From contig PKWH01000157.1 in NCBI GenBank assembly GCA_003131985.1, forward strand, positions 13,836-48,474: DNA of 34,639 bases, written 5' to 3'. Within the stretch, counting starts at the first letter, position 1. Each line of letters opens with the position of its first letter. This stretch comes from Acidobacteriota bacterium. Lineage in GTDB: Bacteria; Acidobacteriota; Terriglobia; Acidiferrales; UBA7541. Positions 6,263 through 14,655 of this stretch are shown piece by piece. The notes beneath the pieces are model-generated. The model was not told the DNA's origin. It saw only the letters and a program-made list of their open reading frames with translations, and did no database searches. The translations under genes and the position numbers were made by a program.

Positions 6263-6598
6263 TTAGATGCGAGTAAGGGCGGTGGCTTCGTCTTCGGCGA
6301 GGTCGAGAATCGTGTCGAGCCGGACCATTTTCAACAGCATTACCACCCGCTTACTCGGCGCGAAGTACGTGCATTTTCCACCGGCGCGCTTCAGCGTGGT
6401 GAACGCGCGAACAAGCGCCCCGATCCCCGAACTATCGAGCTCCGTAACGCCGGCAAGATTTACCGCTACGTGCGTGGATCCCGCTTCAATGAGCTGCTGA
6501 ATCTGATTGCGAAAAGATTCCTCAGCGTCGCCCAACTTCAGCGGCCCGTCGAGATCTACAATGGTGGCCCGGCCAGCCTTGCGGATGCCAATGTTCAC
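6263..6598 (-). CDS. STAS-domain anti-sigma factor antagonist
   Basis: GTG start gives VNIGIRKAGRATIVDLDGPL...; phospho-site motif VTELDSSGIGALVRAFTTLKRAGG. Confidence 0.8.
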   Translation of the reverse strand: MNIGIRKAGRATIVDLDGPLKLGDAEESFRNQIQQLIEAGSTHVAVNLAGVTELDSSGIGALVRAFTTLKRAGGKCTYFAPSKRVVMLLKMVRLDTILDLAEDEATALTRI

Positions 6599-6813
6599 AT
6601 GTGCCTCACAGCGCCTTGCAAAGCTATCTGAATTATATCCGGCAATCAAGGGCTTGCAAAAAACTTCTAGTAAATATGGCTGACACCAAAAGCAGTCTTC
6701 CTTGACGCATATCCATTGCATTTGTTAGGCTCTGGCCCACTGTCTCTTCGTTGCGTGCGGGGTGTTTTACTCGCAATGGGAGAGTAAGAGCATCTCCTAC
6801 CGTTGGGAGAGTA

Positions 6814-9240
6814 ATGGAAACATCTTCCGCGCTTTTCGAACTCGCGAGCGTATCCTTAGCGTGCCGCGATCAAGATACCCTGCTGAAGACCTTCGCCGCA
6901 CGAGTGGGTACCACACTCGGAGCGCGCGCTGTCCTTGTTTGGACCAGCAACGGAACAGCTGAGGAGCTCATATGCCGCATGCGCTGGACCGAGCCGGGCG
7001 AACGTCTGCATCCCACGGAACTACCTGTCTCCGGAGGAACGCTCGCAATATTGTACCGATCGGCTGCCACTAGGCGCTTGCCCGCGCGTGAAATCGTAGT
7101 AGAAGACCTCGAACATCTCGATGAATTCAGCCGCACGCGCGTGAAATCTGCGCTGTATTCGTCTCTGCCGGGAGCGCAAAGGCCGGAAGGCGTAGTCGAG
7201 GTTCTCAACAAGCGGGCCGGAGACTTTACCGCCGAAGACGCTCACTTTCTGGAGGAAGCATGCGTGCTGGCGGGCCGCGCTCTGACCAATCTGGGCGCGA
7301 TTGAACAGGAACGCCAGTCCCAACTGGCCACACTCGAACGCTTGACCGCGCTATACGATCTGGGCCAGACGTTCACGTCAACTCTCGAATTGGAAGAACT
7401 CCTCCCTATCGTGGCGGGTAAAATCCGCGACATTTTAGGCGCTGGCGCCTGCAACCTATGGCTCGCTTCGCCTGACGGCCAAGAACTCAATCTTGCAAAG
7501 CAGATCGGCGATGACCCTACGATCGAAGAGGATGCCACCGCCTCATTGAGTGAAGGTTTGCTGGCCGAAGTTGCGCAGCAAGCAAACCCGAAGTTGGTCG
7601 AAGACCCGAGCGAGGAAGCCGGACTCGCCGCGCGTGTTGAAGCTGGAGGAGATTTCGAGATTCAGTCCTGGATGGCAGCGCCGCTTCGAAAAGACGACGA
7701 GGTTTTAGGCGTCGTCGAGATAATTAACAAGACGGACGGCACGCTGTTCAATGAAGACGATTTGTTTTTCCTCTCCAGTATCAGCGAACAGGCCGCGGTG
7801 GCCCTGCACAACGCAAACCTGCTGGAATCGGAGCGAAAGGTTCACGCCCTTGATGCTCTGTTGAAAATTTCGCAAGAAATTACGTCCACTCTGGATCTCG
7901 ATCACGTCTTGACTACGGTGGTGGCGCAGTCCGCGTCGGTCGTGCCGTTTGAGACTTGCGTCATTGGATTCTACGACCGCGGGCGCTTCGTCCTGGGCGC
8001 CGTCTCTGGAGAAACGGAAGTTCCGAAGACGCGGGAAATGAGCGAGCTGCGCGAACGCATGGAGTGGGTGGCCGAGCAGGAAAGTCCCGTTTCGGCGAAT
8101 TTGCATGAAGATGGCTGGCAAGCCGAGCCGGAAGAAGCCCGCGCGCAGATTGTCTCGTACCTGGAAACCTACGGGCATCAAGGCTTTTACGGCCTACCTT
8201 TGCGCGACGATCAAGGGACGCTCGGAGCGATGATTCTTCTAAGCAAGGAAGCCGATTTTCTTTCGGAAAGCCATTTGGAAACCCTAGCCATCCTGGCCAG
8301 TCAGACCACTGTCGCCATCCGCAACGCGCAGCTTTATCAGCAAGTGCCGCTCGCAAATATCCTGCAGCCGTTCGCCCAGAGAAAGAAAAAGTTCCTGGCG
8401 GCTGTGCCGCAGAGCCGCATGATGGAATATGCGCAACGCGCCGGGGTTGTGGCCCTGTTCCTGACGATTATCCCCTGGCCTTTGCGCGTCGGCACGGACG
8501 CCACGGTGGTTCCGTTCGAGCGCCGCATGGTGAGCGCAATCGAGGGCGGAGTGGTGAAACAAGTCTTCGTGCGCGAAGGCGATTTGGTGAAGCCAGGGCA
8601 GCTGCTTGCGCAACTTGACGACAGCGAGGATCGCATCAAGCTGATCGAAGCGGACGCGGCGTTGTCTCAGGTGCGGCGTGAATTAGCCGAAGCCGAATTT
8701 CGGAACGACCCCGCTGCAGCAGGCCAGGCCCAGATACGCTCCCAGCTATATTCCTCTGAAGTCGCGCTGGAGCAGCAGCGTATCAATGACGCGCGCCTGA
8801 CCTCGCCGATTGCCGGCATCGTAATCACTCCGAAGGTGGAAGAAAAATCCGGGTCCATGATTAAATCCGGAGACAGTTTCTGCGAAGTAGTGTCTCAGGA
8901 CCGCCTGGCCGCGGAAATGAGCGTCCCTGAAACGGATCTCGTGCTCGTAAATTCCGGAGAAAACGTGTCTCTGAAGTTAAACGCCTTCCCCACGACGACG
9001 TTCGAGGGAACTGTGGATCGCATCGGCGCACAGACTCGGATCGACTCTGGCGACCAATATTTTCTGGTGCGAGCGATATTCGAAAATGCGGGAGGAAAGG
9101 CTCGCAATGGAATGGTCGGGCGAGCGAGAATTCGATCGCGCGGTGGATGGTTCGAAAGCGGATGGTACCCGATAGGGTACGTTATCCTGCGCTCGCCGTT
9201 CAGGTGGGTTTGGCAGAAGGTATGGCCCTGGGTGCCGTGA
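6814..9240 (+). CDS. Multi-GAF protein fused to a transmembrane HlyD-type adaptor
   Basis: ORF 6751..9240, preferred start METSSALF with SD GGGAGAG; three GAF-like repeats (e.g. SWMAAPLRKDDEVLGVVEIINK), one TM (VVALFLTIIPWPL), then barrel-sandwich (GGVVKQVFVREGDLVKPGQLLAQLDDSE ... RLTSPIAGIVITPKVEEKSG). Confidence 0.8.
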   Translation: METSSALFELASVSLACRDQDTLLKTFAARVGTTLGARAVLVWTSNGTAEELICRMRWTEPGERLHPTELPVSGGTLAILYRSAATRRLPAREIVVEDLEHLDEFSRTRVKSALYSSLPGAQRPEGVVEVLNKRAGDFTAEDAHFLEEACVLAGRALTNLGAIEQERQSQLATLERLTALYDLGQTFTSTLELEELLPIVAGKIRDILGAGACNLWLASPDGQELNLAKQIGDDPTIEEDATASLSEGLLAEVAQQANPKLVEDPSEEAGLAARVEAGGDFEIQSWMAAPLRKDDEVLGVVEIINKTDGTLFNEDDLFFLSSISEQAAVALHNANLLESERKVHALDALLKISQEITSTLDLDHVLTTVVAQSASVVPFETCVIGFYDRGRFVLGAVSGETEVPKTREMSELRERMEWVAEQESPVSANLHEDGWQAEPEEARAQIVSYLETYGHQGFYGLPLRDDQGTLGAMILLSKEADFLSESHLETLAILASQTTVAIRNAQLYQQVPLANILQPFAQRKKKFLAAVPQSRMMEYAQRAGVVALFLTIIPWPLRVGTDATVVPFERRMVSAIEGGVVKQVFVREGDLVKPGQLLAQLDDSEDRIKLIEADAALSQVRRELAEAEFRNDPAAAGQAQIRSQLYSSEVALEQQRINDARLTSPIAGIVITPKVEEKSGSMIKSGDSFCEVVSQDRLAAEMSVPETDLVLVNSGENVSLKLNAFPTTTFEGTVDRIGAQTRIDSGDQYFLVRAIFENAGGKARNGMVGRARIRSRGGWFESGWYPIGYVILRSPFRWVWQKVWPWVP

Positions 9241-9259: not shown

Positions 9260-10192
9260 ATGAAACGCGCCACTTTGATCTTAATAATCGCCGCGATGGC
9301 GATTGCCGGAAATGGCTGCGACAAGTCGTCGGTGGCGTCCAGCCCCAAGGATGCGCCGCTACAACCATCCAACACGATTCCATCTCAGGCTCCTGCGCCG
9401 ACCGCTGCTACCTCAAAAGGGCCTGAAACGGGCGATATTCTAAGCGTGCTCACAGTAGAACATCAGGTCGATCTCTCCTCGCAAAGCGATGGCACAGTTA
9501 CATCCCTAACCAAAGACCAAGGTAGTGTGGTCAAAACAGGTGAGATTCTTGGGCAGCTTGACGATCGAACTCTGCAACAGGAACTCATCAAGGCGCGCGA
9601 CGATCTGAAGGTGACTCAGAACAACTTGCAGTACAAAGCAGCGGAACTGAAGGCTAAGGGCGCAGCTTACCGGCGTCAGCAGCTGCTGCGGGAAGCAGGA
9701 CTGTCGAGCCAGGCTGATCTCGAAGCCGCGGAATTCGAAGCAAAAGGCGCTGAGTACGACATGCACGCATATGAGGCTTTGGTGGAAAGCGGTCAAGCCG
9801 AGGTCCACCGTCTCGAAATTGAGATTGACCAGACGATCTTGCGCGCTCCGTTTTCGGGCGTCGTAGTGCGGCGGTACGTTCGAGAAGGGCAAGCCATCGT
9901 CAAGGGCGACAAGTGTTTTCGGGTGAGTCAGCTCTATCCGCTGCAGGTCCAGTTTCAAATTTCTGAATTGGCAAGCCCGCGCCCGGCAGTCGGCGCGCCA
10001 GTTAACTTGATTCTTTTGGGCGGTTCCAATCGGTCGCTGAACGCGAAAGTGGTGAAGGTGAGCCCTACCGTGGATCCGTCCAGCGATAGTTACGATGTGG
10101 TGGCCCAGCTCACTGGTTCGGGGATTTCCGATCTGCGCCCGGGAATGGCTGTGCGGGTCGGATGGCCCGGCACATCGCAACCGAAGCCGTAG
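9260..10192 (+). CDS. HlyD/RND-type membrane fusion protein, putative lipoprotein
   Basis: N-terminus MKRATLILIIAAMAIAGNGC; DGTVTSLTKDQGSVVKTGEILGQLDD and ILRAPFSGVVVRRYVREGQAI; 19-nt gap to upstream gene. Confidence 0.85.
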   Translation: MKRATLILIIAAMAIAGNGCDKSSVASSPKDAPLQPSNTIPSQAPAPTAATSKGPETGDILSVLTVEHQVDLSSQSDGTVTSLTKDQGSVVKTGEILGQLDDRTLQQELIKARDDLKVTQNNLQYKAAELKAKGAAYRRQQLLREAGLSSQADLEAAEFEAKGAEYDMHAYEALVESGQAEVHRLEIEIDQTILRAPFSGVVVRRYVREGQAIVKGDKCFRVSQLYPLQVQFQISELASPRPAVGAPVNLILLGGSNRSLNAKVVKVSPTVDPSSDSYDVVAQLTGSGISDLRPGMAVRVGWPGTSQPKP

Positions 10193-10204
10193 AGGATCTC
10201 GACT

Positions 10205-12352
10205 ATGCGTTTCGGTCCCACCAGTCTTCAAGTCTCCAGCCTACTTGCAAAAGGCCTCAAGCGCCCCAAACTCCGCACGGATCTGCGCATCAGCGAACAA
10301 ACGGTTGCCGGCGAAATCAGTTACGTTGTCAAAAACCGTGAGACGAATTCCTACAACCGGTATGGAGCCACCGAATATCAGCTGCTATCACTTTGCGACG
10401 GAACTCGTACGGCCGCTGAGATCGCACAGGTCATGTCTGAAAAGGATCCCGATTTAACGACGAGCGAGGCCGATGTGCTCGACTTCATGGACTCGGTGGA
10501 ACCCACCATGTGGGAGCGATCAATCGGAGAAAAAAACCTAGCCGTGCTCGAGCGCATTCGCGACGAGCGGAAAGGCCGGGTCGAGCAATCGAGTGTGCTC
10601 TACATCAGCTTTAAAGCCTGGGACCCGGACAAGACACTCACCAAATTGGATCGCTACCTCGGATGGATGTTCACCAAGGGCTTTGTCATCTTTTCTTTGT
10701 TCATATTTGTCGTAGCCGTTTATCTGCTTGCCGGCGATTGGACGCGCGTGCAGCAGGATACTTCGGCCTTGTATAGTTTTGCGGGTAAAAGCGCCTACGA
10801 CATCTGGATCTTTTGGATCCTCCTCCTGGGTCTGGGCGCCATACACGAATTTGGCCACGGGCTCACTTGTAAACATTTTGGCGGTGAAGTCCATCAGATG
10901 GGTTTTTTGCTTATCTATTTCACTCCTGCATTTTTTACCGATACCACGGACATTCTTCTGTTCCAGACCGGAACTCCGCGTCAGTGGGTCATCTTCGCGG
11001 GCATTTGGATTGAACTGGTGATCTGCGGCCTGTCTGCGTTGGTCTGGCATTTCACCGCGCCAGGCTCCCTGACGAACGACTTTTTTTACAAAATGATGCT
11101 GCTGAGCGGGATTCAGGGCGCGCTCGTGAACCTGAACCCGCTCATCAAAGCCGACGGCTACTATGCGCTGTCGCAATTCCTCAAAATCGATAACCTGCGC
11201 GAAGAGTCTTTCGGCTACCTGCGAGCCTGGACGGAAAAATATATTCTTCGGCACGACATAGATTTGCCGCCCTCCAGCAAGCGCCAGCGCCGTGTTTTTT
11301 TCCTGTTCGGAGTCTTGGCCATTATCTACAGCGCGTCGCTTCTGATTATTATGCTTTTGTTTGTTAAGAACATACTCGTAAGCCAAATGGGCAACGAATG
11401 GGGCTATCTCGCAACCCTCGGCGTCATTTATTTCTTTGCCAGGAATAGTATTCGAAAAGGATTGCCTTTAGCTCGGGCTTGGATACGGGACAAGAGGGGA
11501 AAATATATGGCCTGGAAAATGACGCGTGCACAGCAGGTCGGCGCACTGGGATTGATTCTCCTGTTTCTGTTGCCTCCGTTTTCGTCCAAGGTCACCACCG
11601 ATCTGGTGCTGGAGCCCGGTAAAGACGCACGGGTTCGGGCCGTGGTGAACGGCAGAATTCAAAAAGTGTTTGTTCACGAGGGGGACGAAGTAAAAGCAGG
11701 CCAAATGTTGGCCGTTTTGGAAAATCCCGACATAAGCGCTGATGCACAATCGCTCACGCAACAGTTAGCGCTCGCCAGCAGTAAGGTTCGCAATAATCAG
11801 GATCGCTCGGACTTTAGCCAAGCGGCGCAGGTGGTTCGTGACCGCGACCGGCTCGAACAGGAGTTGTCTGAGGCGCAGAAGAGAGTGCAAGACCTCGAAA
11901 TTCGGGCTCCCATGGACGGTATCGTTGTCACTTCCAACGTGGACCAGGAAGCTGGCCAATATTTCTCGGCAGGAGACGAGTTTGCCCGGCTGGTGGATCG
12001 AACCACCATGAAGGCGCGTATTCTTGTGCAGGACCGCGAGCTTCCGGACGTTCAACCCGGCGCTCCTGCAAAGGTGAAGGTGCTCCCATTTCCGTACAGA
12101 ACTTACTCGGGCCACGTCGACAAAATACTTCCGGCTGCGGCGCTGGATCATCCAGTCGCTCAGACTGAAGAGCTGGAGCGTCTAGGGCAGGAATTGGCGA
12201 ATTTCGTGGCGGTTGAGATGGAGATCCCAAACCCTGATGGGTCGCTGCGGGAAGGCATGACCGGCAAGGCAAAGATTTCTGGCGCCAGGCATTCCTTAGC
12301 CTGGGAGGCCGGGCAAGGGGCATGGCGCTGGGTGCGTTCGCAGTTTTGGTAA
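10205..12352 (+). CDS. Three-part protein: PqqD-like N-terminal domain, M50 (site-2-protease-like) membrane metalloprotease, C-terminal HlyD barrel
   Basis: PqqD-like YQLLSLCDGTRTAAEIAQVMSEKDPDLTTSEADVLDFMDSV; zinc motif AIHEFGHGLTCKHFGGEV and second-half NLNPLIKADGYYALSQFL; HlyD GRIQKVFVHEGDEVKAGQMLAVLENPD. Confidence 0.85.
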   Translation: MRFGPTSLQVSSLLAKGLKRPKLRTDLRISEQTVAGEISYVVKNRETNSYNRYGATEYQLLSLCDGTRTAAEIAQVMSEKDPDLTTSEADVLDFMDSVEPTMWERSIGEKNLAVLERIRDERKGRVEQSSVLYISFKAWDPDKTLTKLDRYLGWMFTKGFVIFSLFIFVVAVYLLAGDWTRVQQDTSALYSFAGKSAYDIWIFWILLLGLGAIHEFGHGLTCKHFGGEVHQMGFLLIYFTPAFFTDTTDILLFQTGTPRQWVIFAGIWIELVICGLSALVWHFTAPGSLTNDFFYKMMLLSGIQGALVNLNPLIKADGYYALSQFLKIDNLREESFGYLRAWTEKYILRHDIDLPPSSKRQRRVFFLFGVLAIIYSASLLIIMLLFVKNILVSQMGNEWGYLATLGVIYFFARNSIRKGLPLARAWIRDKRGKYMAWKMTRAQQVGALGLILLFLLPPFSSKVTTDLVLEPGKDARVRAVVNGRIQKVFVHEGDEVKAGQMLAVLENPDISADAQSLTQQLALASSKVRNNQDRSDFSQAAQVVRDRDRLEQELSEAQKRVQDLEIRAPMDGIVVTSNVDQEAGQYFSAGDEFARLVDRTTMKARILVQDRELPDVQPGAPAKVKVLPFPYRTYSGHVDKILPAAALDHPVAQTEELERLGQELANFVAVEMEIPNPDGSLREGMTGKAKISGARHSLAWEAGQGAWRWVRSQFW

Positions 12353-12393: not shown

Positions 12394-12429
12394 CAAAAAA
12401 AGGGCTGCCGTTCCTGGGACGGCAGCCCT
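12394..12429 (-). terminator. Rho-independent terminator of micropeptide gene 1
   Basis: 10-bp perfect stem AGGGCTGCCG/CGGCAGCCCT (12401-12410/12420-12429); read on minus it is followed by a T-run. Confidence 0.8.
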
Positions 12430-12490
12430 TGGTAGTGCAACTGCTAACTCTGCTTGGGCGCAAAGCCCAATTGTTACTGGTCTAAGCCAA

Positions 12491-12574
12491 TTAGCCGCGG
12501 GCTGGTCCGTGAACGGTCAGCGGCTTCACAGATCCCAGCTTCTTTCCCTTTTTCACTGTCTTTGCTTTTGCCAT
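12491..12574 (-). CDS. Lys-rich micropeptide 1 (27 aa) MAKAKTVKKGKKLGSVKPLTVHGPARG, putative precursor/secreted peptide
   Basis: Manual translation; SD AAGGAG upstream; sigma-54 promoter match and terminator in the expected places; paralog at 12987-13061. Confidence 0.8.
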   Translation of the reverse strand: MAKAKTVKKGKKLGSVKPLTVHGPARG

Positions 12575-12628
12575 GGTCTTGAGTCTCCTTAAGATTTTTT
12601 GTTTTCTTGCTGCCTGCACTGCTGCTAG

Positions 12629-12644
12629 TGCAATCGGCGCGCCA
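12629..12644 (-). promoter_or_regulatory. Sigma-54 (-24/-12) promoter of micropeptide gene 1
   Basis: Minus strand TGGCGCGCCGATTGCA fits TGGCRCG-N4-TTGCA with GG-N10-GC spacing; about 55 nt upstream of the ATG. Confidence 0.8.
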
Positions 12645-12890
12645 AACTGTCAACCGGCCCACGTGAGAAGCTGTACTTGATTTGAAAGCACTTATCGACG
12701 GCACGAAGCAGCGCGCGAATGGCCTCGATACCAAATGTGTTTAATTTTTGAGTTCGAGTTGAATAATTCAATATGCAGGCGAGGCCTTAAGATCCTCATC
12801 GCGATTGCAGAGCCGGAAGAGCAATGTCGGAAGAAGATGGATGCGGATCTGAACTGCTGGGACGAACTGGGGCGAGGTTGCTCCGGCAAA

Positions 12891-12920
12891 AAGAAAAGCT
12901 GCCAGCCTTTCGGTGGCAGC
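12891..12920 (-). terminator. Rho-independent terminator of micropeptide gene 2
   Basis: Stem GCTGCCA/TGGCAGC (12898-12904/12914-12920), followed on minus by TTTTCTTTTT. Confidence 0.75.
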
Positions 12921-12986
12921 CCGCTAGTTCCGTATCAGCTATCTATCGGTGCGCAGTCGAACCGCTGCACCTGTGACGCGAAACGC

Positions 12987-13061
12987 TTAATTGCCCCCCC
13001 ATCGGATTAGGGGCTTGGTTTTTTCCAGCTTCTTTGCCTTCTTCAAGGTTTTCTTTGCCAT
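12987..13061 (-). CDS. Lys-rich micropeptide 2 (24 aa) MAKKTLKKAKKLEKTKPLIRWGGN
   Basis: Manual translation; SD GGAGGA; N-terminal 18 residues align with micropeptide 1; own promoter and terminator. Confidence 0.8.
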   Translation of the reverse strand: MAKKTLKKAKKLEKTKPLIRWGGN

Positions 13062-13113
13062 GACACTTCCTCCGCGTTTGGGGTACAGCTCACGCTGGCC
13101 ACACCTTGCTCTG

Positions 13114-13129
13114 TGCAAAACCGGTTCCA
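13114..13129 (-). promoter_or_regulatory. Sigma-54 (-24/-12) promoter of micropeptide gene 2
   Basis: Minus strand TGGAACCGGTTTTGCA: TGGaAC-N5-TTGCA with GG-N10-GC spacing; about 52 nt upstream of the ATG. Confidence 0.72.
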
Positions 13130-13266
13130 ATGTCGAAGGGAAACGCTCCGAAACTAAAGTACTGAAGGAAAACAGGTTAGAGTGTTTAGGCCGTTTTCTC
13201 TCGTCGATGGAGCGCAGAATTCTGTTGAAATTCTCACCGCGACGATTAAAAAGTCACCCGAAAAAC

Positions 13267-14655
13267 CTACAGGTTATACTTACGACATAAGTAGTTCAAC
13301 CGGTTCCGGTCCACTCCCAGCAATCGCGCGGCATCCGCTTTTCCTTCTTTAGCCTGCTCTAGAGCTTCCTGAACCCAGCGACGCTCGAAAGTCTCCATTT
13401 CCTTGGCCAAATTGATCCCGCCCGAAGGTAGCCGGAACCGGTTCCGAGAATCGCGCCCGGAAGCTTGCACAATTTCGCCCGGGAGGTCCTTCAAAGAGAT
13501 CACTTCGCCGTCCGTCATTACCACGAGTCTTTGAATTGCGTTCTGGAGTTCCCTGACGTTGCCAGGCCAGGGATAGCGCTTCAGCGCTAACATGGCATCG
13601 TCGGCTATTCGTTTAGGAGGAAAGCTGTTGGCAGCGCAATAAACGCTGACGAAGTAATCCGTTAGCACGGGTATATCTTCTATCCTCTCGCGCAGCGACG
13701 GAACGAAAATGGGCACCACATGAATCCGGTAGTAGAGGTCCTCGCGAAACCGTTCTTCGCGAACCATTTCCTCCAGATCTTCGTTCGTCGCGCTAATCAG
13801 CCGAAAATCTATGCGGATAGGCTTTTTGCCACCTAGCCGCGTGAATGAACGATCCTCTAGAACGCGCAGGAGTTTGCTCTGGAGCGCGGGCGTGAGCGTC
13901 GCAATTTCATCCAGGAAAAGCGTCCCTTGATGCGCCATTTCAACTCGGCCTTCCTTCATGGCTGTTGCGCCGGTAAAGGCTCCCTTCTCATAACCAAATA
14001 ACTCCGCTTCCATTAAGCCCTCGGGAAGAGCGGCACAATTCACGCTGACGAATGCGCGGTTTCGTCGAGGGCTCTGTTCGTGAAGCGCTCGCGCCACCAA
14101 TTCCTTACCCACCCCGCTCTCTCCCCGGATGATAACGTTCGTGGTCGCCCGGGCCATTCGTTTTATGGAATCGAACACGTGGTTCATGGCGTCTGTCGAG
14201 CCGATCAAATCGCCATGCGTACTCTTGCGGCTTATCTCCTGGCGGAGAATTCGATTTTCGCGCTGGATGTGTAATTTCTCAACGGCGCGCTCAAGCAGAT
14301 GTCGAAGAACGTCCGTATCAATAGGCTTGATGAAGTAGTCGTAAGAGCCTGCATCGATTACTTTCAAGGCGGTGGCTTTTGTTTCGTCAGAGCTAAGCAC
14401 GATTACGAGCGTGTCAATTTCACTTCCTACCAGGCGGGCAAGCAGTTCGGCGCATTCGCGGACGCCTCCGTCACCGAGCGGGAGGCCCAGTAGCAGGACG
14501 TCGAGCGCCGACCCCTGGAGGAGGCTGTAGGCCGCTGCCATATCCTCGCCTTCGAAGACTTCGAACTCCGATCGCAGAGCGGACGCAATCTTCGAGCGAA
14601 GGCTGTGGTCATCGTCAACAATGGCTACTTTGGGTTTAGTCGCTACGGGAGTGAT
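13267..14655 (-). CDS. NtrC-family sigma-54-dependent activator with degenerate receiver domain
   Basis: GESGVGKELVARAL, GAFTGA, FLDEI, R-finger region and Fis HTH ADAARLLGVDRNRLNYLCRKY; in-frame receiver N-terminus KPKVAIVDDDHSLRSKIASAL lies upstream of the tracked start; 5' end uncertain (no ATG/GTG/TTG). Confidence 0.85.
   Translation of the reverse strand: MTPVATKPKVAIVDDDHSLRSKIASALRSEFEVFEGEDMAAAYSLLQGSALDVLLLGLPLGDGGVRECAELLARLVGSEIDTLVIVLSSDETKATALKVIDAGSYDYFIKPIDTDVLRHLLERAVEKLHIQRENRILRQEISRKSTHGDLIGSTDAMNHVFDSIKRMARATTNVIIRGESGVGKELVARALHEQSPRRNRAFVSVNCAALPEGLMEAELFGYEKGAFTGATAMKEGRVEMAHQGTLFLDEIATLTPALQSKLLRVLEDRSFTRLGGKKPIRIDFRLISATNEDLEEMVREERFREDLYYRIHVVPIFVPSLRERIEDIPVLTDYFVSVYCAANSFPPKRIADDAMLALKRYPWPGNVRELQNAIQRLVVMTDGEVISLKDLPGEIVQASGRDSRNRFRLPSGGINLAKEMETFERRWVQEALEQAKEGKADAARLLGVDRNRLNYLCRKYNL

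Follow-up and report, generated by a model that had tools for sequence, protein, structure and literature searches.

A sigma-54-controlled family of putative precursor peptides beside an RRE-M50-HlyD machine in Acidobacteriota

Introduction

Acidobacteriota are an abundant, poorly understood soil phylum. The window, a stretch of 34,639 nucleotides from one genome of this phylum, contains two very short reading frames placed between two convergent blocks of genes: a sigma-54 activator on one side, and genes for a GAF-HlyD, an HlyD and an M50-HlyD protein on the other. Are these frames genes and, if so, what might their products have to do with the proteins encoded around them? A preliminary description, made from the DNA alone, had taken them for paralogous micropeptides with a conserved N-terminus and a divergent C-terminus, a 'leader/core-like' arrangement. 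We followed this up by comparison with relatives across the phylum; all evidence reported here is comparative, and several of the genomes used are incomplete MAGs.

The two micropeptide genes

Both frames lie exactly where the preliminary description had placed them, at 12491-12574 (gene 1) and 12987-13061 (gene 2) on the minus strand. Gene 1 encodes MAKAKTVKKGKKLGSVKPLTVHGPARG, which divides into MAKAKTVKKGKKLGSVKPL and the tail TVHGPARG; gene 2 encodes MAKKTLKKAKKLEKTKPLIRWGGN, which divides into MAKKTLKKAKKLEKTKPL and IRWGGN. Each has a Shine-Dalgarno sequence (AAGGAG at 12585-12590 and GGAGGAAG at 13066-13073) and is followed by a terminator-like hairpin with a T-run (12400-12430 and 12893-12920). 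Upstream of each stands a sigma-54 -24/-12 box (TTGGCGCGCCGATTGCA at 12629-12645; TTGGAACCGGTTTTGCA at 13114-13130) and, farther upstream, a presumed activator-binding site, a dyad in the case of gene 1 (TTGAATTATTCAAC, 12758-12771) and a version with one degenerate half in the case of gene 2 (TGAGAATTTCAAC, 13224-13236). All of these elements are on the minus strand, and judged by its sequence each gene looks like a full transcription unit, running from presumed activator site through sigma-54 box, Shine-Dalgarno sequence, ATG and stop codon to hairpin and T-run.

The lysine-rich N-terminus of the micropeptides conforms to MAKKxLKKxKKLxxxKPL. Homologues of gene 1 occur at loci L075, L079, L080, L082 and L097, and those of gene 2 at L080, L082, L004, L074 and L077. 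Codon comparison with 7 and 9 homologues, respectively, gave pN/pS values of 0.13 and 0.11 for the leader, taken as the first 19 or 18 codons, against 1.08 and 0.93 for the tail, with pS about 0.6, i.e. synonymous change near saturation. The frame, whose loss in relatives would have refuted the preliminary description, is kept. By this codon evidence purifying selection on the N-terminal half is strong and the tail is free, so that a constrained leader is joined to an unconstrained core-like end; the proposed contrast between the two ends is thus borne out, and the pair satisfies the RiPP precursor criterion of a short ribosomal peptide whose leader is conserved and whose core varies.

Neither window peptide, nor the KPL-kind relatives that were tested, matched a Pfam or NCBIfam family above its cut-off, and NCBIfam yielded no match for either window peptide even at E≤10. 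A 25-row profile search detected six copies in the window's genome (assembly of 3.95 Mb, 77% complete). At least four further copies are spread over three contigs besides that of the window: L004 has MAKKILKKAKKLEATKPLTTFVR, L012 has the tandem pair MAKKLKKSKKLEATKPLTVARLQFGVGRP and MATKKLKQPKKLEPTKPLRRK, and L013 has a looser copy. In relatives the profile matched as many as eight times in a single genome; the dispersed copies have no conserved neighbours. Motif matches in two genomes (G024 and G036, KKLYETKPL) were discarded because they fell within a long protein.

Promoters and regulon

A Shine-Dalgarno-like core was present in 54 of 54 collected members, compared with 17% of ATGs; it had served as a filter for part of this set. 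A sigma-54 box at -115 to -35 was found in 41/54 members vs 2.1% of random positions (four of the 54 had themselves been found via the box), and members that lack a box often stood second in a tandem. The dyad GTTGA-N5-TCAAC, situated roughly 90-120 nt upstream of the -24/-12 box and often double with copies about 20 nt apart, occurred in 28/54 members vs 1.2% of random positions, and also stands upstream of the dispersed copies. The window's genome encodes sigma-54 itself (RpoN; PF04552, E=1e-57).

We also searched for the combined regulatory pattern TTGA-N5-TCA-N90-120-TTGG-N9-TGC. It gave four matches, representing three promoters, in the window's genome, all of them 5' of micropeptides, while its reversed control gave none there. 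In relatives it led to four members missed by the protein motif (L120, L122, L123, L132). Genomes that lack the system also yielded dyad plus box, about once each; the pattern is therefore unspecific outside these genomes, and supports a regulon but cannot by itself define one. Together, the profile copies in the genome, the difference in pN/pS between leader and tail and the frequency of the sigma-54 box indicate, on sequence grounds, that both micropeptide genes are real and not chance ORFs.

The sigma-54 activator

The activator is encoded at 13267-14655 on the minus strand and retains GAFTGA. With RpoN in the genome and a -24/-12 box before both window genes, the criteria for a sigma-54-dependent unit with its AAA+ activator are met. 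That this protein binds the sites upstream of the micropeptide genes is inferred from co-occurrence, without binding data.

The activator has several features of its own. No ATG, GTG or TTG start would preserve its whole receiver domain, and its start was inferred at ATC (14655-14653). An ATC at this position with a purine-rich Shine-Dalgarno sequence upstream recurs in 9/9 near relatives (the window, L079, L080, L082, L085, L090, L097, L219 and L236), and farther relatives have ATG (L223, L226) or TTG (L231) at the same place; the start is probably a conserved, non-canonical AUC. In the genus, the phosphate-accepting Asp of the receiver domain is replaced by Gly or Ala (LLGLPL, LLAMPI vs LLDLLL in NtrC1), so that, as far as sequence can tell, the protein is probably switched on otherwise than by ordinary phosphorylation; the L224 activator keeps the Asp. 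An ORF carrying the motif HDIKN recurs near the activator at three distant loci (L164, L171, L175; e.g. L164:1867-2634); it resembles a histidine kinase and might be the activator's partner.

The adjacent machine and its distribution

The gene adjoining the pair, at 10205-12352 on the plus strand, encodes a 715-aa fusion of a PqqD-like RRE, an M50 membrane metalloprotease and an HlyD adaptor (M50-HlyD). On the same strand lie an HlyD/RND-type periplasmic adaptor, assigned by domain matches (9260-10192), and a conserved partner, a GAF and HlyD adaptor fusion (GAF-HlyD; 6751-9240). Among eight M50-HlyD homologues HEFGH is invariant, and NPLIKADGYY is kept except for one I/V change. Over its first ~100 residues M50-HlyD matches PqqD, but only weakly (PF05402, E=0.005, below cut-off). 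An AlphaFold model of this domain, built from 24 homologues (pLDDT 79), has as its best PDB matches PqqD (5sxy), leader-bound lasso RREs (5v1u, 5v1v, 6jx3) and an RRE-bearing sactisynthase (5wgg), with Foldseek probabilities of 0.95-1.0 and E values of 0.009 and above. We take the criterion of an RRE encoded nearby to be met, with the RRE fold resting on a predicted model. The position of the RRE-M50-HlyD gene beside the pair gives the preliminary 'leader/core' reading, already supported by the selection data, a mechanistic footing.

The layout, with peptides between the two blocks and on the activator's strand, recurs in the genus and, beyond it, in further genera, families and classes of Acidobacteriota, at 28-58% M50-HlyD identity. 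Wherever the interval between machine and activator was complete, every locus examined (28-91% M50-HlyD identity) contained at least one peptide gene with a Shine-Dalgarno sequence. M50-HlyD was found in 11 of the 20 genomes searched in the genus; the peptide profile matched in 10 of these 11 and in none of the nine without M50-HlyD (one-sided Fisher, 6e-5, uncorrected for relatedness), and inspection of the eleventh machine-bearing genome (G010) revealed a variant peptide at the locus (L142). Two genomes of genus g5 (G112, G125), both incomplete assemblies, have peptides with no M50-HlyD match listed, and a third incomplete assembly (G018, L264), in which the machine was not found, has MAKPKSKQLASKKLGRVVPLKKK, a peptide-like ORF, in the vicinity of a SET gene. 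Named M50-HlyD records came from Acidobacteria MAGs and one Candidatus Acidiferrales MAG; a plasmid search, the only test outside Acidobacteriota, gave 23-26% identity among the matches listed, in Proteobacteria.

Across 27 loci only the machine genes and the activator recur widely, and neither an ABC transporter nor any other energised transporter is a conserved part of the locus. Seen separately, a STAS-domain (anti-sigma-antagonist-like) gene, at 6263-6721 on the minus strand of the window, recurs next to GAF-HlyD throughout the phylum, mostly in divergent orientation (L163, L164, L166, L219, L223 and others); its role in the machine is unknown.

Repeat-type relatives

Leucine recurs every six residues in the micropeptides (MAKKTL KKAKKL EKTKPL). 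This register is prolonged in longer members (KKGKKL GAVKPL MKVNAL MKINPL TRLN in L097; AKTL KGVSSL RGVSTL RGINTL in L227), and the leader, itself built on it, becomes long tandem repeats in other clades, with repeat tails of 70-110 residues. There, distant relatives have a K-rich leader followed by Leu-anchored tandem units of 5-7 residues, such as TLQRG (L224), SLQRA (L225), ALQRT (L230), HLSKQI/SLSKQA (L172), KLAPN (L169) and SALASK (L175), and mostly lie 3' of a sigma-54-like box at the same spot of the locus. Because micropeptides and repeat-type relatives share the Leu register, the window peptides look, at the level of sequence, like the short end of a continuum; position and register suggest a common ancestor of the two types, which is not proven. 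Some distant counterparts match the pentapeptide-repeat families PF13599 and PF00805 weakly (E 7e-6 to 0.04); none does so at gathering score, and the counterparts differ in having a Lys-rich leader and a unit of 5, 6 or 7 residues.

Other peptides in the interval vary further. At L171, L174, L175 and, more loosely, L164, the repeats or tail follow a leader of another kind, IKLTxxQRxQIKxATGxDxSEVR, which gives the machine a second type of leader in some classes. Four different micropeptides stand in tandem between M50-HlyD and the activator at L232:8175-9864. The tails of L092:4113, L084:8570 and L081:6514 resemble fragments of Hcp, the type VI tube protein, e.g. ISITKMADKASPNLS and EIVITKPTDVTSPR; full-length Hcp fusions at these loci were rejected, as the matches were weak (E 0.005-0.013) and no Hcp continued downstream in any frame. 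A relative in L091 looks frameshifted.

SET-domain genes

No tailoring enzyme is conserved phylum-wide (27 loci). A SET-domain gene (PF00856, E=1e-11) directly adjoins the peptide gene in some relatives, and the best PDB matches of its product are histone H3K4 methyltransferases; the SET gene of L080 lies at 8409-8861. Of 20 SET loci in 61 genomes, nine had a sigma-54-boxed K-rich peptide within the ~3-kb locus, compared with 0/77 control loci of similar size; the nine include some discovery cases, and two describe one place. Four new peptides (L275, L276, L277, L279) were reached through the SET gene. We infer that, in some relatives, the SET enzyme probably methylates the peptide's lysines. 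A search of the genome to which the window belongs yielded no SET homologue, and methylation therefore cannot be general.

Comparison with known systems

In daptide biosynthesis, the RRE-dependent M50 peptidase MpaP strips the leader from the precursor MpaA (PMC10036551). The window system is similar in setting leader-bearing precursors beside an RRE-M50 intramembrane peptidase (PMC10036551), and the best NCBIfam match of its M50 part is NF041824 (E=4e-52). The daptide criterion of an RRE-containing M50 peptidase is thus met, although the score of 177.6 bits falls below the cut-off of 300. The HlyD fusion and sigma-54 control, however, belong to the window system, no aminotransferase, oxidative decarboxylase (decarboxylating dehydrogenase), methyltransferase or DUF-RRE is conserved at these loci, and the window peptides end in N and G, not in Thr; nor do the listed KPL members end in Thr. 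Epipeptides likewise combine a small precursor with an M50 protease, EpeP/YydH, which is thought to cut and export EpeX/YydF (PMC10885120, PMC7614699). In contrast, neither an EpeE-type radical SAM epimerase nor an EpeAB ABC transporter is conserved at our loci, the window M50 reaches 42.4 bits on NF058609 (cut-off 225), and neither window peptide matches a YydF/EpeX model. Both identities were rejected, their defining tests having failed. The N-terminal domain of M50-HlyD shares its modelled fold with PqqD and lasso-peptide B1 RREs, and differs from them in forming one protein with a membrane protease and an adaptor. By analogy, the machine may correspond to the part of M50-dependent RiPP systems that removes the leader and exports the product, a function that remains inferred.

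Discussion

On the genes, the selection on their leaders, their promoters, the co-occurrence of machine and peptides and the RRE fold of the model, all of which were observed, we would build the following scheme. The two genes would encode precursor peptides, and the dedicated activator (13267-14655) would switch on both the pair and the dispersed copies through the GTTGA-N5-TCAAC dyad upstream of the -24/-12 promoter. The lysine-rich N-terminus would be a recognition leader bound by the RRE of M50-HlyD, the intramembrane M50 protease would cut the peptide, and the variable tail would leave the cell via the envelope assembly of M50-HlyD, HlyD and GAF-HlyD; in some relatives, the SET-domain lysine methyltransferase beside the peptide probably would methylate the lysines first. 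That KPL peptides are substrates of RRE-M50-HlyD is an inference by analogy with the RRE-dependent M50 proteases of daptides and with EpeP. Leader binding, cleavage and export are likewise inferred, as is any role of the product, be it signal, antimicrobial or surface peptide. In the absence of expression, binding or peptide data, we hold this scheme to be probable, no more.

Its most serious competitor is that the peptides are never exported, acting instead as cationic intracellular effectors on nucleic acid, the ribosome or the membrane in the manner of histone tails, while the neighbouring HlyD and M50 genes respond to the same stress and make no use of them. A net charge of +8 in 24-27 residues, dispersed copies without conserved neighbours and SET genes like those of histone H3K4 methyltransferases next to some copies would all fit. 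Yet an effector of this kind leaves the patchy co-occurrence with the machine (10/11 vs 0/9 in one genus), the constant interval position across the phylum, the RRE-like domain of the neighbouring protein and the freely diverging tail to be explained, and we regard it as unlikely.

A role for the machine without cargo status for the peptides seems less likely again: the leader could be a mere handle by which the peptides inhibit or activate an M50-HlyD/GAF-HlyD pump that transports something else. Two of the three machine proteins do resemble efflux adaptors (RND_mfp), GAF domains suggest ligand sensing, and the tails are short and unlike one another. Dispersed copies are many, however, and differ in their tails; these, like the long repeat tails of other clades, look like cargo rather than a regulator. 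The short transcripts predicted to end in a hairpin and T-run could also belong to a sigma-54-dependent small RNA with a secondary ORF, or to an attenuator leader peptide. We give this hardly any credence and set both versions aside for reasons of selection and layout: selection acts on the protein while synonymous sites are near saturation, the Shine-Dalgarno-like core is universal among members (within the limits of its use as a filter), and no gene follows on that strand in the window, the next one being convergent.

We therefore return to precursor peptides exported by the machine. The family of sigma-54-controlled precursor peptides and its dedicated RRE-M50-HlyD machine appear real, coherent and apparently undescribed; no description of them was found in the literature, in a search limited to open-licence papers. 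The widest form of this reading, in which exported peptides throughout Acidobacteriota share one sigma-54 switch, one RRE-protease-adaptor machine, many dispersed precursors and a short Leu-anchored repeat product, SET-methylated in some lineages, is only a tentative possibility.

With this finding, an unstudied envelope machine of three genes, found across Acidobacteriota, acquires a predicted substrate and a predicted switch. The finding also describes a regulon of genes of 20-45 residues, under common length cut-offs, that can be recovered from its promoter. To our knowledge, a SET-tailored ribosomal peptide would be the first of its kind, and if the SET link is true, a eukaryote-style lysine methyltransferase would enter bacterial peptide maturation.
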